Part shown: one piece after another, positions 27,906-63,162 of the stretch
Layout of the letters: each line of letters begins with the position of its first letter
Numbering within the stretch: position 1 is the stretch's first letter
NCBI GenBank assembly: GCA_963680875.1
Contig: OY804588.1
Span: 63,185,397 to 63,249,396, forward strand
Direction of reading: 5' to 3'
Length of the DNA stretch: 64,000 nucleotides
DNA from: Bathymodiolus brooksi
Lineage: Eukaryota > Mollusca > Bivalvia > Mytilida > Modiolidae
Translations under genes and position numbers: made by a program
The notes under the pieces: model-generated
The model's database searches: none
What the model saw: only the letters and a program-made list of their open reading frames with translations
What the model was told of the DNA's origin: nothing

Positions 27906-27935
27906 ATATATTTAAACAGCACCGACCATCTTAAA

Positions 27936-28190
27936 TTAACTTATATAGCAACCAAAAATATTTAGATAAATGCTATCACATGTACGAAGAGTTAGAAGAT
28001 ACCAAAGGGGTAATCAAAGTCCGTAAATCGACGAAGGACAGACAACACAATGGCCAAAATATATTAACTTATATAGCAACCAAAATATTTAGATAAATGC
28101 TATCACATGTAAGAAGAGTTTGAAGATACCAAAGGGGTAATCAGAGTCCGTAAATTGACGAAGGACAGACAACGCAATGGGTAAAAGAAA
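27936..28190. repeat. Tandem repeat, about 128-bp unit, 2 copies
   Basis: Units start TTAACTTATATAGCAACC at 27936 and 28064. Copy B has three full units plus degenerate ones (59850-60395). Confidence 0.9.
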
Positions 28191-28384
28191 AAAGGACAAA
28201 AGAACAAACAACTATCTACAAAGCACCACACCGAAAACTAAAGATCGAGTTACATCAACTCCACTAAAATCGGAGGTGAACGCAGGTTCTTAGGGTGAGT
28301 GAGCAGTTCCTGCTCCACTAGCGACACCCGTCGTGTTATAAATGCTATGATAAGTAACTGTTTCAGTTGTCATTGTCCAGTTAA

Positions 28385-28580
28385 TATTGGTGGTTAGATT
28401 TACATCTGCCGATATATTAACTGTATACTATCTCTAATGTGTTCGAGGGCGATGCCTACCTGTGGTGGGATGGGCTAGATTAAATTGTATATAAGTTTGT
28501 CAGTTATTTCCGACACCAACAAAGCTTACCTCCACAATCTATATGCAATATTGTTGAAAGTGGCGTTAAAAACATCATAA
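28385..28580 (+). mobile_element. SINE family 1, old and degenerate
   Basis: GGTGGTTAGATTTACATC, a weakened body and the tail TGCAATATTGTTGAAAGTGG. The partner is 60597-60785. Confidence 0.55.
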
Positions 28581-28749
28581 AACCCACCCTACAACATCAT
28601 TTACATACTCATTTGCAGTCATTAATAAAGCTGAAATACTGATCACTGATGCTAAGCATCAATCAATTAATCAATCAAGCTTCATTAGATTGTGCTATAT
28701 TACATGAACATTTATAAAATACAAAAAAGATCCTGCTTCATAATATGCA

Positions 28750-28755
28750 TTTATT
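28750..28755 (-). terminator. Polyadenylation signal AATAAA, gene A
   Basis: AATAAA on the minus strand about 20 bases past the stop codon. It is kept in copy B at 60952-60957. Confidence 0.6.
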
Positions 28756-28772
28756 TGTTAATAGTCAATATT

Positions 28773-29020
28773 CTATTCTCTTCGAACCATCATTGTTGTT
28801 CTTTTCAAGGAGTAATAAGAGCCTTTCCAGTGCAACCAGTTGACCCCATTGGCATGCGACTTATGTTTTCCTTTCAGGTACAGGCCATTCAAGTTTGCAT
28901 TGTGACATTTACCATACCACCAACCACCTTTATACTTCTGTGCACAACTTCTACTCCATGCGTCAACGTCTTTATCTTTTGCTGAAAATTGTCGTCCATT
29001 ATGAACCGCCATTGAATCTC
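28773..29020 (-). CDS. Fibrinogen-related gene A, last exon (C-terminal FBG subdomain)
   Basis: Acceptor (TATATTTTCAG) in phase 1, 81 codons and a stop. The exon encodes the ligand-binding end of a fibrinogen C-terminal globe: DKDVD in the calcium-loop position, the Cys pair in [16 protein letters not shown], the hallmark NLNGLYLKG, and [17 protein letters not shown] at the end. Such secreted lectins bind carbohydrate or acetyl groups on microbes and are immune effectors in molluscs. The framework residues are intact, but about 22 of 81 residues differ from gene B, while the adjoining intron is nearly identical. The upstream frameshift in exon 31384-31479 means a normal transcript would probably stop before this exon is read in frame. 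Confidence 0.93.
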
Positions 29021-29255
29021 CTGAAAATATAATAACGCAACATGCTTTATTGTATTGTTTCTCTTTTGTGATTGGAATTAAGCATTGTGTATTGGATGAG
29101 AGGGGTTTTAGAGATGGGTGTTTCAGCTGTTTCAACATCGTATGATAGTTGGATTCACAACTGTTTCTTGTTGGTCGATTTAAAGAAATCTTCTCCTCTC
29201 AAACCGCTTAGCCAAATGAACCGAAACTTGGTAGGAAGCATATATTTGTCATCTA

Positions 29256-29650
29256 AGTAAGTAAGTAAGAAAGTAAGTAAGTAAATTTTGTTTAAAGTCG
29301 GCACATATATACATATAGCAAATAACATGACCTACATGAAGCTCTTAAAACCGAATATAACACATATACAAGCAAACATACCATTTTTATATACAGGCAA
29401 GTATCTATATGAGCATATACATATACAAGCAAACAAGTATCTATATGAGTATATAACAAGCAAGTAAGAGCACATAAAAAGCAAATAAGAGCACATACAA
29501 ATTAAAGATTGATCATTACATCCCGATTGGACAAAAACATGGTCGACATGGACAATTATTTTTTTCTGATTCGCTGAAATTTAAAACATCTTTCCATCTG
29601 AATCTAGGAGGCACAATGAATTGCTTTTTTGTAGGAATGATGAATGGTAT
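29256..29650 (-). mobile_element. LINE 3' end fragment in FReD intron
   Basis: A run of AAGTAAGTAAGTAAG, then AAAGTCGGCACATATATAC and GAAGCTCTTAAAACCGAAT, resembles the 3' UTR and tail of the LINE at 5662. It lies between exons 3 and 4 of gene A, with a partner at 61458-61805. Confidence 0.65.
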
Positions 29651-29883: not shown

Positions 29884-30048
29884 CTGCATCACCCTGATAT
29901 CCACCAATTGTCAACTTGTATACTGACTTTTCATCGCCCACTGCAAACTGTTTATATTTAGCATACTTCTCGTTATTGTCAAAATCCTCCATGTTAATAC
30001 GTAGACTATATTTTCCTTGTGCTGTGAGCTGGTGTAAGTATTCATTAC
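29884..30048 (-). CDS. Fibrinogen-related gene A, FBG exon 3
   Basis: Acceptor (CTTATTTTTAG) and donor (GCAG/GTGAGG) give 165 bp, phase 1 in and out. The text is NEYLHQLTAQGKYSLRINME, DFDNNEKYAKYKQFAVGDE and YKLTIGGYQGDAG. This matches the middle of the fibrinogen globe (LGN..I..LT..G.Y.LR...ED, Y..F.VGDE...Y.L..GGY.GDAG). The frame is fully open here and the length equals that of the B copy (62013-62177). About 11 of 165 bases differ from B. The exon would be reached out of frame because of the 1-bp loss in the previous exon. Confidence 0.93.
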
Positions 30049-30789
30049 CTAAAAATAAGACATTCATGAGATCCCCAGAAATGTTTTTTTTTTACATAAT
30101 TGATGTCAATAAAGCTTAAGTATTAGTTCAACCTTGATTGACACTTTGCATCAGATAGGTTTAATACTAATTTATAATAATGAGTGTTATTTAAAACCTT
30201 ACATTAGACGTGTTGTTTACTTTATTCTAATATGACGTTCTTCATTGGCTGTTTAAACAATGCCGTGATAAAACTCTCCATATATTTTAATTAGCACGTG
30301 CGTATTGTCGGACAAATGATGTAAGTCATTTCTAAGGGATTTGATGTATTTATACAGGATTATTGTTCGTACAAACAATACAATGTTCCATTTGCTTTTT
30401 TACACCTTCATTTTTTTCGGAAAGAATACTAAAGATGACCATCTATCGACTTTGGTTTTTGTTAATTGTCGTGTTCCGATGACGTAATTTCCAAGGCACG
30501 TAGCTGACATTGACACATACTGGTTACTGATTTATTTTATGATTTTGTTAGCATTTTACTTGTTTAAGTTGCTAAAAACAAAATGTCATGAAATTGGAAA
30601 ATGTCTGTACCTTAATTTCAACAAAGAAAAACACATGTAAACATAAAGGTTAGTGGATTTTGTTATGACATGCACTTCCATTTACTGACACAATGTACTT
30701 CCACTTCAAAAATGAAGTTTGATTTTCTTTTATTACAATAGAAATAATTCAGGGAAGCCAAGGTTTTAAAACGTTTTAACATGGGTAAC
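30049..30789. other. Gene A intron (FBG exons 2-3), left part
   Basis: Intronic sequence close to 62178-62945 in B. No further element is seen until the LTR mini-element. Confidence 0.7.
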
Positions 30790-31286: not shown

Positions 31287-31383
31287 GTAACGTTATTTTC
31301 GTTGCATTTTATCGAAAATAATGCTACCCATGTTAATGGAAAATGCAAACATTTTTACATAATCGTACCATTTAGATACGTAC

Positions 31384-31479
31384 CTAACCAAAACTCTTTC
31401 TCTGTGTTTCCAAATCCGCGTCTGTAGGTTCCCATTTGCGATAAAAGTCAACTGTTCCATCCATTCGTCGTTGGAATAC
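31384..31479 (-). pseudogene. Fibrinogen-related gene A, FBG exon 2 with 1-bp loss and stop
   Basis: Splice sites are kept (acceptor CATTGCAG, donor GTACGT), but the exon is 96 bp where the B copy (63066-63162) is 97. The text starts normally ([17 protein letters not shown]), matching the fibrinogen motif QRR.DG.VDF.R.W. It then shifts, losing the expected [15 protein letters not shown], and meets TAG at the exon end. The change GAGACGTAC to GAACCTAC is a substitution plus a deletion, not a homopolymer slip, so a sequencing error is less likely. A truncated product would lack most of the globe. Confidence 0.88.
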
Positions 31480-32165: not shown

Positions 32166-32249
32166 CATTTAACAATCACATTTAACAAGAATATGCATAA
32201 TCATTTCTTGCCATCTAATCATTGCCACCAATAACATAGCATCACTTAC

Positions 32250-32380
32250 CGTCCACCCACTACCATTTTTCTCCATCTCACAGTAAACTTCAAAACCAGA
32301 GGTATTCTTCGGGAAGATCTTGTATACTCCACTCTTGCAAGTAGTTTTATCAAGTTCACCACAGTCCGAGGGTCGCTTAA
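32250..32380 (-). CDS. Fibrinogen-related gene A, FBG exon 1
   Basis: Acceptor (TTGTTTTAG) in phase 1 and donor (ACG/GTAAGT) in phase 0 give 131 bp. The text KRPSDCGELDKTTCKSGVYK, IFPKNTSGFEVYCEMEKNGS, GWT is the classic start of a fibrinogen domain (DC..L....SGVY.I.P.....F.VYC.ME..G.GWT), including both Cys of the first disulfide. The first base of the split codon comes from the 44707-44805 exon (G), giving Val. The intron upstream contains the 10.7-kb minisatellite. The B equivalent is not visible and should lie just right of the window. Confidence 0.92.
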
Positions 32381-34121
32381 CTAAAACAAACAAAGCTCCA
32401 TTTACTGAATATTTATAAAAAAAATCTTGAGTTGTTTTTCAAGACACGCTGATTAGCTGTACATTATTTATATGTGTTAGAGAAAAGCGAATGAACAATC
32501 AAGAATGAACAATCTAGAGACACGGGAAACATTGGACACAGGACACGGAACGGAAGCAAACGAAAGAAGAAGAACAAAATGTGATATAGATTACATGTCA
32601 TTGAAATAAACATCAACATCTATGATATCATTATTAATACGTCCTAGAGCATAAAGTCAAGAATTATATAATGTTGAGAAAATTATTTCCCTTTAAATGC
32701 ATGACTACTACGCCAGAGTGAATATATATTTATTCTTTCTTATTCTCTTAATAAAATGTAAAACAAAACAATACCGTACTGTCGGAACAATTCTAAAATA
32801 CCACACTGTCGGAACAATTCTAAAATACCACACTGTCGGAACAATTCTAAAACACCACACTGTCGGAACAATTCTAAAATACCACACTGTCGGAACAATT
32901 CTAAAATACCACACTGTCGGAACAATTCTAAAATACCACACTGTCGGAACAATTCTAAAATACCATACTGTCGGAACATTTCTAAAATACCCCACTGTCG
33001 GAACAATTCTAAAATACCACACTGTCGGAACAATTCTAAAATACCACACTGTCGGAACAATTCTAAAATACCACACTGTCAGAACAATTCTAAAATACCA
33101 CACTGTCGGAACAGTTCTAAAATACCACACTGTCGGAACAATTCTAAAATACCACACTGTCGGAACAATTCTAAAATACCACACTGTCGGAACAATTCTA
33201 AAATACCACACTGTCGGAACAATTCTAAAATACCATACTGTCGGAACATTTCTAAAATACCACACTGTCGGAACGATTCTAAAATACCACACTGTCGGAA
33301 CAATTCTAAAATACCACACTGTCGGAACAATTCTAAAATACCACACTGTCGGAACAATTCTAAAATACCACACTGTCGGAACAATTCTAAAATACCACAC
33401 TGTCGGAACAATTCTAAAATACCACACTGTCGGAACAATTCTAAAATACCACACTGTCGGAACAATTCTAAAATACCACACTGTCAGAACAATTCTAAAA
33501 TACCACACTGTCGGAACAATTCTAAAATACCACACTGTCGGAACAATTCTAAAATACCACACTGTCGGAACAATTCTAAAACACCACACTGTCATAACAA
33601 TTCTAAAATACCACACTGTCGGAACAATTCTAAAATACCACACTGTCGGAACAATTCTAAAATACCACACTGTCGGAACAATTCTAAAACAGCACACTGC
33701 CGGAACAATTCTAAAATACCACACTGTCGGAACAATTCTAAAATACCACACTGTCGGAACAATTCTAAAATACCACACTGTCTGAACAGTTCTAAAACAC
33801 CACACTGTCGGAACAATTCTAAAATACCACACTGTCGGAACAATTCTAAAATACCACACTGTCGGAACAATTCTAAAATTCCACACTGTCGAACAATTCT
33901 AAAATACCACACTGTCGGAACAATTCTAAAATACCACACTGTCGGAACAATTCTAAAATACCACACTGTCGGAACAATTCTAAAATACCACACTGTCGGA
34001 ACAATTCTAAAACACCACACTGTCGGAACAATTCTAAAATACCACACTGTCGGAACAATTCTAAAATACCACACTGTCGGAACAATTCTAAAATACCACA
34101 CTGTCGGAACAATTCTAAAAT

Positions 34122-44706: not shown

Positions 44707-44805
44707 CTCGACAAGTCGTGGTCGGTGGATCTTGGTTTTTACAATTGCAGCGTTCTGACAGGTGGGCAATTATTTTGCCCGCAACTTGTCCGGAAATTTT
44801 CACAT
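44707..44805 (-). CDS. Fibrinogen-related gene A, small N-terminal exon 3
   Basis: 99 bp between an acceptor (TATTTTCAG) and a donor (CGAG/GTAATT), phase 1 at both ends. The text (VKISGQVAGKIIAHLSERC, then NCKNQDPPTTTCR) has an amphipathic helix followed by a Cys-containing, Pro/Thr-rich stretch, suited to linking chains or spacing the globe from the N-terminus. It is homologous to the exon at 46611-46703 and, being phase-symmetric, can be duplicated or skipped without breaking frame. Its last base joins the fibrinogen exon at 32380 in frame. I do not recognise a named domain. Confidence 0.8.
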
Positions 44806-44841
44806 CTGAAAATAATATATCAATAAAGTAGAAAAAACCCT

Positions 44842-46610: not shown

Positions 46611-46703
46611 CTCGTCTAGTTGCGTTCGGTTCTTTTCTGTGAATGCAGCGATCAGACATAAGGTGAATTATTTTGCTGGCAGTTTGTTCGGAAATTTTTA
46701 CAT
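46611..46703 (-). CDS. Fibrinogen-related gene A, small N-terminal exon 2
   Basis: 93 bp, acceptor (TATTTTCAG) and donor (CGAG/GTAATT), phase 1 at both ends. The text VKISEQTASKIIHLMSDRCI, HRKEPNATRR aligns with the exon at 44707-44805 (VKIS.Q.A.KII..S.RC). NAT is a possible N-glycosylation site. It joins the signal-peptide exon in frame (G plus AT gives Asp). The pair shows exon duplication in the stalk region. A role in oligomer formation is inferred from the helix and single Cys only. Confidence 0.8.
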
Positions 46704-59825: not shown

Positions 59826-59849
59826 ACTAACCCTATCATATGATACCTA

Positions 59850-60395
59850 TGCTATGACATGTAAGAAGAGTGTGAAGATACCAAATGAGTAATCAGAATC
59901 CGTAAATCGAAAAAGGACAGATAACACAATGGCCAAATGAAAAGTTTGAAGATACCAAAGTAGTAATCGGAAGTCGTAAATAGAAAACGCACAGACAACA
60001 CAGTGGCCAAAATAAATTAACTTATATAGCAACCGAAAATATTTAGATAAATGCTATCACATGTAAGAAGAGTTTGAAGATACCAAAGGGGTAATCAGAG
60101 TATGTAAATCGACGAAGGACAGACAACACAATGGCCAAAATATATTAACTTATATACCAACCAAAATATTTAGATAAATGCTATCACATGTAAGAAGAGT
60201 TTGAAGATACCAAAGGGGTAATCAGAGTGCGTAAATCGACGAAGGACAGACAACACAACGGCCAAAATATATTAACTTATATAGCAACCAAATTATTTAG
60301 ATAAATGCTATCACATGTAAGAAGAGTTTGAAGATACCAAAGGGGTAATCAGAGTCCGTAAATTGACGAAGGACAGACAACACAATGGGTAAAAG
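59850..60395. repeat. Tandem repeat, about 128-bp unit, 3 full plus degenerate copies
   Basis: Full units start TTAACTTATATAGCAACC at 60017, 60145 and 60272. Two shorter, diverged units precede them. Copy A has two units. Confidence 0.9.
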
Positions 60396-60974: not shown

Positions 60975-61222
60975 CTATTCTCTTCGAACCATCATTGTTG
61001 TTCCTTTCAAGGAGTAATACAGGCCTTTCCAGTGATGCCAAATAACCCCATTGCCATACGACGTATTATTTCCTTTCAGGTACAGGCCATTCAAGTTTGC
61101 AGTGTGACAACCATGATACCACCAACCACCTTTAAACTCCTGTGCGCAATGTGCATCAATTCTGTCGACGTCTTTATCTTTTGCTGAAAATTTTTGTCCG
61201 TTATGAAACGCCATTGAATCTC
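60975..61222 (-). CDS. Fibrinogen-related gene B, last exon (C-terminal FBG subdomain)
   Basis: 248 bp, phase 1 acceptor (TATATTTTCAG), stop at 60975. The text keeps the fold: [33 protein letters not shown] with both Cys, [17 protein letters not shown] and WHHWKGLYYSLKGTTM. Compared with gene A the core is constant, but changes cluster just before the first Cys, between the Cys, and in the loop after NLNGLYLKG. These are the calcium and ligand-pocket regions in known fibrinogen lectins. NNT adds a possible N-glycosylation site. Together with the other open exons, gene B looks functional where it can be seen. Confidence 0.93.
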
Positions 61223-61805: not shown

Positions 61806-62012
61806 TATATCATGTACACATTTCCTGCATTACCCATCAATATAAAGTAATAGTTTCATACTTCATTATCCTGATGTCCACCTAACATGCATTACCTTGA
61901 CATCCACCGATATCAACTTCAACTTCAAAAGCCTTCATAATCTTGATACCCATCCCCAATATTAAGCCCAACCTACAATACTCTGATATACATTGAAAGG
62001 TTTAAGCCTCAC

Positions 62013-62177
62013 CTGCATCACCCTGATATCCACCAACTGTCAGCTTGTATACTGACTTCTCATCGTCCACTGCAAACTGTTTATATGTAGCATACTTCTC
62101 GGTATTGTCAAAATCCTCCATGTTAATACGTAGATTATAGTTTCCCTGTGATGTGAGCTGGTGTAAGTGTTCATTAC
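62013..62177 (-). CDS. Fibrinogen-related gene B, FBG exon 3
   Basis: 165 bp, phase 1 in and out, open throughout. The text NEHLHQLTSQGNYNLRINME, FAVDDEKSVYKLTVGGYQGD, AG is a standard mid-globe segment. About 11 bases differ from gene A, giving residue changes such as Thr for Ala and Asn for Lys/Ser. It follows the intact exon 63066-63162 in frame, with the split Gly codon (G + GT) completing FWLGN. Confidence 0.93.
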
Positions 62178-63065
62178 CTAAGAATAAGACATTCATGAGA
62201 TCCCCTGAATTTTTTTTTCTACATAATTGATATTAATACTAGCATAGCTCAACTACTAGTTCAACAGTATATGTGTTTCAAATACAGGATGTTGTGCTTG
62301 ACACTTTGCATCAGATGGGTTTTATACTAATTTATAATAATGAGTGTTATTTGAAACCTGACATTAGACGGGTTGGATGCTTTATCCTAATATGACGTCC
62401 TTCATTGGCTATATAAACAATGCTGTGAAAATACTCTCGATATATTTTAATTCGCACGTGCGTATTGTCGGACAAATTATGTAAGTCATTACTAAGTGAT
62501 ATTATGTATTTACACATGATCGTTGTTCGTACAAGCAATGAAATGTTCGCTTTGTGTTTTCACACCTTCATTCTTTCGAATTTGTTGGTGCTAAAGATGA
62601 CCATCTATCGGCTTTGGTTTTTGTAAATTGTCGTCTTCCGTTGACGTAGCGTACAAGGAACGCTGGTTACATTGACACACGCCAGTTTCTGATTTATTTT
62701 ACGATTGATTAGGATTTTACTTGTTTAAGTTGCTACAATGAAAATGTCATCAAATTGGAAAATGTCATTAACTTAATTTCAACAAAGAAAAACACCTATA
62801 AATAAAGGTTAGTGGATTTTGTTATGACATGCACTTCCATTACTGACACAATGTACTTCCACTTCAAAAATTAAGTTAAATTTTTAATATTGGAATCGAA
62901 ATAATTCAGGGAAGCCAAGGTTTTATAATGTTTTAACATGGGTAACATTATTTTCGTTTCTTTTTATTTCTCGCTATCACTCGGAAGATTTGTACGGAAG
63001 TAATGTTTCCCATCTTAAAGCAACATGCAAACATCGTTACATAATCGTACCATTGAAATACGTAC

Positions 63066-63162
63066 CTAACCAAAACTCTTTCTCTGGGTTTCCAAATCCG
63101 CGTCTGTACGTCTCCCATTTGCGATAAAAATCAACAGTTCCATCCATTCTTCGTTGAAATAC
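63066..63162 (-). CDS. Fibrinogen-related gene B, FBG exon 2 (intact)
   Basis: 97 bp between acceptor (CATTGCAG) and donor (TTAG/GTACGT), phase 0 in and phase 1 out. The text [32 protein letters not shown] is the most conserved stretch of fibrinogen domains. It sets the correct frame for the family and so shows that the 96-bp gene A exon is the damaged one. Exon 1 of gene B should lie about 750 bp or more further right, beyond the window edge. Confidence 0.93.

Follow-up and report, generated by a model that had tools for sequence, protein, structure and literature searches.

The window analysed here, a stretch of 64,000 nucleotides from Bathymodiolus brooksi (at 63.185-63.249 Mb of contig C17, in a genome assembled as 136 contigs totalling 2.0 Gb), contains two fibrinogen-domain (FReD) genes, A and B, whose last exons differ strongly from each other while lying between stretches that are nearly identical in the two genes. 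The question raised by this locus is how an exon can become, or remain, so different from the sequence that adjoins it. An initial annotation had proposed diversifying selection or exon-level gene conversion in an immune lectin family; we consider it probable that diversifying selection acts on the predicted ligand pocket and that gene conversion homogenises the flanks but spares, or partly shuffles, the exon.

Genes A and B and the strip around exon 4

Exon 4 of gene A, its last exon (28773..29020; this and all exons and strips below lie on the minus strand), encodes the end of the FReD and the stop codon in an open frame and matches PF00147 with E 2.7e-29 (profile 141-219), the last exon of gene B being likewise open (60975..61222; PF00147 E 3.6e-27) and both matches passing the cut-off. 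Upstream in gene A, tblastn places the middle of the FReD in exon 3 (29894..30050, bounds approximate), an exon 2 that falls in two tblastn frames with a one-base frameshift (31382..31479), and the first FReD exon (32247..32381; 87% identity in a search with the relative P0002, PF00147 E 1.3e-07). Searches with P0002 also gave a probable N-terminal exon without Pfam domain (44708..44806; E 4.5e-09) and, more weakly, a possible start exon (46612..46659; E 0.025). In gene B the tblastn span of exon 3 exceeds the exon (61996..62217), exon 2 has an open frame (63064..63162), and every exon seen is open. The frameshift of gene A recurs by tblastn in its near-identical second copy, L033, which suggests, from the reading frames, that gene A is probably a pseudogene keeping an open last exon. 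Other broken paralogues are L035 and L044 (exon 3) and L052 (exon 4). An IgSF domain was found neither in the relatives P0002 and P0004 nor in two upstream exons of gene A, the only sequences to which this observation applies.

The genome holds at least 158 matches to PF00147, the majority on contigs C17, C15, C13, C6 and C14, and when the last exon of gene A and its flanks are used as a DNA query the best 40 of 93 candidates all fall on C17. Among the 120 relatives listed, Mytilus FReDs rank highest of those that are named, with 61-66% identity (the 32 named Mytilus proteins span 51-66%), and ENA sequences reach 70-75%; ficolin-2, of the same fold family, is a sequence match with E about 1e-55. 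Tandem units of about 125 bases lie downstream of both genes (59849-60394 and 27932-28191), with a higher copy number near B than near A. Comparisons across loci were made with a set of 14 (20 loci less L033 and L039, the copies of A and B, and the more distant L049-L052) and with a set of 20 (24 loci less L033, L039, L052 with its broken exon 4, and L022, whose exon 4 is identical to that of L021). The exon 3 set omits L035 (frameshift), the exon 2 set omits A (frameshift) and L043 (exon not found), and L018, L019, L024, L029 and L030 were too distant for the alignments.

Between A and B, exon 4 differs at exactly 40 of 248 bases, the number that had been estimated by eye, with 22 residue-changing codons, again as estimated, and 4 silent ones where about two had been noted. 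The changes comprise 20 transitions and 20 transversions, and in four codons all three bases are replaced. By comparison, the 3' flank (28150..28772) differs at 16 of 617 bases and the part of intron 3 adjoining the exon (29021..29260) at 2 of 240, so that exon 4 stands far above the two flanks taken together (18/857; Fisher p 8e-15). An AATAAA motif is read 18-23 bases past the stop codon of gene A, inside the 3' strip, and most of this strip would thus probably be untranscribed if the transcript ends at that signal.

The near-identity of the flanks is restricted to the immediate surroundings of the exon. Indeed, distal intron 3 differs at 29 of 556 bases, exon 3 at 11 of 157 and intron 2 at 135 of 848, and the upstream region as a whole (intron 2 and exon 3) reaches 161/979, or 16.4%, which equals the divergence of exon 4. 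The unusual part is therefore the flanking strip and not the exon, and the implied picture of a fast exon inside young duplicates is not supported: judging from their sequences, A and B are not young paralogues, with 5-16% divergence outside the strip beside exon 4. When the comparison is restricted to sites polymorphic among the 14 loci, the A/B differences number 161/443 for the upstream region, 32/156 for intron 3, 40/103 for exon 4 and 3/47 for the 3' flank, and silent changes at codons that encode the same residue amount to 4 per 34.7 sites in exon 4 and 3 per 32.5 in exon 3.

Near-identical second copies of the A and B regions (28700-29200 and 60975-61222) are found at C17:63862438 and C17:63890416, at a distance of about 645 kb, and seem to run collinear with further pairs of FReD genes, as in a segmental duplication or unresolved haplotypes. 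These copies, together with the frameshift in gene A, could point to an artefact, either assembly duplication, mis-joined haplotypes or the relaxed decay of a pseudogene. We regard this as very improbable: full-length comparison shows differences between the copies and A and B, no stop codon interrupts the matched part of exon 4 in 23 of the 24 loci, relaxed decay cannot push an exon above its own flanks, and the step in diversity at exon 4 is visible across 13 loci (the 14-locus set without L046), with the selection signal described below present in 14.

Selection on exon 4 codons and the predicted pocket

Averaged over the whole of exon 4, replacement and silent divergence are similar, as inferred from the A/B comparison (NG86, 32.8/195.5 versus 7.3/47.5, a ratio near 1.1) and from an M0 omega of 1.01. 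A dN/dS near 1 had been named beforehand as a result that would refute the interpretation, and the average gives that result; it hides, however, two classes of codons. Across the 14 loci pN/pS is 0.14 in 43 conserved codons and 1.29 in 18 variable ones, the classes being set on overlapping data, and a model with positively selected sites is strongly preferred (M2a over M1a, 2dlnL 46.8, with omega 4.6 at 22% of codons; M8 over M7, 49.0). The M1a/M2a comparison gives 72.2 on the flank tree and 83.0 with 20 loci. The codon models are home-made, with a single tree despite recombination, naive posteriors and single-base mutations only, and cover at most 20 loci from 40 or more relatives on C17. The same comparison by exon, a check proposed at the outset, leaves a positive class unsupported in exon 3 (13 loci, 2dlnL 0) and in exon 2 (12 loci, 2dlnL 0.5), the latter with low power at 33 codons.

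The placement of the replacements agrees with these models. With classes taken from the other loci, 14 of the 22 A/B replacements fall in variable codons, 8 in intermediate ones and none in the 43 conserved codons (p 8e-8). As stated beforehand, DKDVD and both cysteines are identical in the A and B translations, as are HWKG and a stretch of 11 residues. A second pair, L045/L046 (duplicates or alleles, 98.7-99.3% identical in long matches), has 9 replaced codons in exon 4 and no silent change; its exon 4 differs at 11 of 264 bases and its flanks at 17 of 1909 (Fisher p 2e-4), and its replacements are 6 in variable, 2 in intermediate and 1 in conserved codons as classed from other loci (p 0.003). 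This pair also carries, directly after the Ca2+ motif, an insertion of seven codons that is unique to it among the 24 loci.

A local mutation hot spot that raises all substitutions in exon 4 would agree with the fact that whole-exon pN and pS both exceed those of the flanks. Nevertheless, silent divergence in the conserved codons of exon 4 (0.075) is like that of exons 2 and 3 (0.077 and 0.079), and neither the lack of residue change at conserved codons between A and B nor the lack of silent changes between L045 and L046 would be expected from it, so that we hold this explanation to be extremely improbable.

The selected codons were placed on the FReD fold by residue spacing from the cysteine pair (FIBCD1 401/414, codons 25/38 here) and by passages of the literature, and exon 4 is predicted to encode the Ca2+ site and the S1 ligand pocket. 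In the passages of PMC3908420 that describe FIBCD1, the pocket is formed by Tyr405, His415, Tyr431, Ala432 and Trp443, and Ca2+ is bound by Asp393 and Asp395 together with the 397 and 399 carbonyls; passages of the FIBCD1 crystal papers add an extended site (His382, His396, Arg412, Asn413) and surface residues (Glu398, Asn413). Posteriors of at least 0.5 are obtained at 396, 405, 412, 413, 431, 432 and 443 and lower ones at 382, 398 and 415, meaning that 7 of the 10 named positions outside the Ca2+ site fall on selected codons (p 0.001; 5/7 in an earlier set of seven, p 0.007). A and B themselves differ at 8 of the 10 named positions and at 14 of 71 others. These results uphold the proposal of diversifying selection at probable ligand-facing sites: about one fifth of exon 4 codons, mainly those of the pocket lining and rim, are under diversifying selection, and the structural codons are conserved.

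The core of the domain is kept across the 20 loci, the Ca2+ aspartates being present at 393 and at 395 in 19/20 each and the disulfide cysteines at 401 in 20/20 and at 414 in 19/20. The pocket set of the acetyl-specific FReDs (FIBCD1, TL5A, L- and M-ficolin), namely Tyr405, His415, Tyr431, Ala432 and an aromatic at 443, does not hold across these loci. The equivalent of His415, the anchor histidine, is found in 16/20 and Tyr or Phe at 405 in 19/20; position 432 holds Ala in 8 of the 20 loci and Gly in 9, position 431 is Tyr or Phe in only 5/20, with 9 residue types, and position 443 is Tyr in 6/20, with 8 residue types. Ficolin-2 has Phe in the place of 431, a residue counted as conserved in the passages of PMC3908420. 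Of the 32 named Mytilus proteins, 29 carry Tyr or Phe at 431 and 30 carry Ala at 432, and the entropies at 431, 432, 443 and 415 are 1.44, 0.34, 1.54 and 0, versus 3.05, 1.70, 2.71 and 1.02 here, even though the Mytilus set is the more diverse overall (mean identity 66% versus 73%). The outcome is the same with 36 relatives, 4 of which have names truncated before the species. The contrast is not a simple one: positions 398, 405, 413 and 382 are equally or more variable in the 32 Mytilus proteins, and 396 and 412 vary to a similar extent in both sets.

Genealogies and probable exchange between copies

The histories of exon 4, its flanks and the upstream region disagree. A tree built from both flanks combined is accepted by each of them (AU 0.25 and 0.21) and rejected by exon 4 (AU 0.003-0.004), and the exon 4 tree is in turn rejected by both flanks. 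Each flank rejects the other's own best tree, the combined tree alone fitting both, and the 5' flank tree taken alone is borderline for exon 4 (AU 0.045-0.054). The upstream tree is not rejected by exon 4 (AU 0.084), yet exon 4 fits it imperfectly, with a dlnL of 20.1 that lies above every one of 40 simulations on that tree; the upstream data reject the combined flank tree (AU 4e-8), and the two flanks reject the upstream tree (AU 0.003 and 1e-11). This mutual rejection of the flank and the upstream genealogy indicates a different history and not mere constraint. In Mantel tests over 91 pairs of the 14 loci, short-flank distance was unrelated to silent or replacement distance in exon 4; distances in the longer 5' flank and in exon 4 correlate weakly (r 0.30, p 0.011).

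These conflicts bear on the possibility that point mutation and diversifying selection on a single gene tree, with no exchange between copies, suffice. Such a process explains the L045/L046 pair by itself, fits the strong site models and agrees with a non-significant PHI test in exon 4; it does not, however, account for flank and upstream trees that reject each other, and selection simulated on the flank tree (dlnL at most 7.1 in 40 runs versus 28.9 observed) or on the upstream tree (at most 8.4 in 40 runs versus 20.1 observed) never yielded the observed conflict (0/40 in both). We thus judge it quite unlikely.

The converse possibility is that, of two recent duplicates, one received an entire, diverged exon 4 by copying from a distant paralogue. 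The conflict between the exon 4 genealogy and the combined flank tree would follow from this, as would the higher silent divergence at same-residue codons in exon 4 (4/35) than in the flanks (18/857; Fisher p 0.009). However, among the best 40 genome matches scored, and its own copy aside, the exon 4 of gene B has no match above 87%, and 8 of its 18 variable codons encode residues absent from the other 19 loci; lacking a close donor among these matches and carrying private residues, B makes whole-exon import less likely. The two halves of exon 4 also conflict with each other, and the 16.4% upstream divergence of A and B argues against recent duplicates. Import is therefore unlikely in our view, and of the exon-level conversion proposed by the initial annotation the exchange between copies stands, as inferred from the AU tests and simulations, while the newly imported exon is not supported.

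As to the reach of the exchange, the longest identical runs lie mainly upstream (41 of the 46 significant pairs, out of 91, the A/B run included), which indicates exchange along the whole gene; the strips beside exon 4 do not stand out in this test. Evidence for tracts inside exon 4 is mixed. The two halves of the exon conflict by 97, versus at most 65 in 40 simulations, the second-half value being 42.9 in one run and 68.2 in another with slightly different columns; linkage inside the exon declines little past a few bases; and PHI gives p 0.06 for exon 4, 0.04 for the intron, 0.06 for the 3' flank and 0.98 for the whole region. Mosaic exons thus lack firm PHI support and are favoured by the split-half test alone. 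We conclude that exchange has been gene-wide and that exon 4 has mostly escaped homogenisation, perhaps with some reshuffling.

In the combination of selection and conversion that we favour, A and B are members of a large, clustered germline family of FReD lectins, and sequence exchange between loci, with gene conversion as its most likely form, would have made the strip uniform to either side of exon 4. The pocket codons would escape this homogenisation, presumably as a result of selection against converted copies that lose their pocket differences, and exchange of short tracts inside the exon may yield further combinations, as the conflicting halves suggest short of proof. Against this explanation stand the borderline 5' flank tree and the weak distance correlation, the rejection by each flank of the other's best tree, the identical runs found mainly upstream and the non-significant PHI in exon 4; in addition, for conversion to spare 240 bases with such sharp limits, its tracts would have to be short or patchy.

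Relation to known systems and significance

FIBCD1, the ficolins and tachylectin-5A, all acetyl-binding FReD lectins, share their fold family with the proteins studied here, and the equivalents of their Ca2+ aspartates and disulfide are nearly fixed; the difference lies in the pocket, where residues called conserved in the passages of PMC3908420 vary. In bivalves, a section of PMC8678459 reports 158 and 169 FReD (FBGDC) genes in two oysters, many of them parasite-responsive, a lineage-specific expansion like the present one; that section deals with expansion and expression, and not with pocket sites or flank homogenisation. The discussion of the same paper cites positive selection on Biomphalaria FREPs, so that selection on FReDs is not new as such, and PMC3516473 presents evidence that a fibrinogen gene of a mosquito has been under selection.

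According to PMC7588048 and PMC12074976, Biomphalaria FREPs are likewise lectins of a mollusc with a fibrinogen domain, and both gene conversion and point mutation have diversified them, but they bear one or two IgSF domains and their variants come from cells of single snails, whereas here the copies are germline, from one assembly, and the diversity lies in the fibrinogen pocket. Primate L/M opsins, as described for the gibbon in PMC3213168, resemble the present genes in their conversion-homogenised introns, diverged functional exons and discordant exon and intron trees. They comprise two genes in which selection keeps a fixed difference, whereas the present family is large and its pocket codons have omega above 1. 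The opsin-like pattern of discordant trees and younger adjoining introns is present, with two departures: intron 2 of A and B is unhomogenised and the 5' flank tree alone is borderline. In the ASSET process of snake venom exons (PMC2711939), segments of binding-surface exons are likewise replaced on a maintained scaffold; ASSET switches contiguous segments, and the changes here are single codons scattered round the pocket. The component parts are thus known, namely bivalve FReD expansion, selection on FReDs, conversion-homogenised introns, and FREP conversion with mutation. Among the titles and abstract openings listed in a survey of openly accessible literature, none dealt with selection on the pocket of a bivalve FReD.

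A further reading, which we put forward as doubtful, is that this FReD family has abandoned the conserved acetyl pocket, the lining having become a hypervariable germline recognition site and the last exon a recombination-bounded cassette, with broken copies such as gene A still acting as donors of pocket sequence. On the combined action of selection and conversion, which we prefer, the likely use of the family would be a germline repertoire of lectins that differ in ligand preference. If this is true, the locus would offer a testable invertebrate lectin case in which gene conversion and diversifying selection are opposed within 250 bases, and it would name the residues expected to set ligand specificity.
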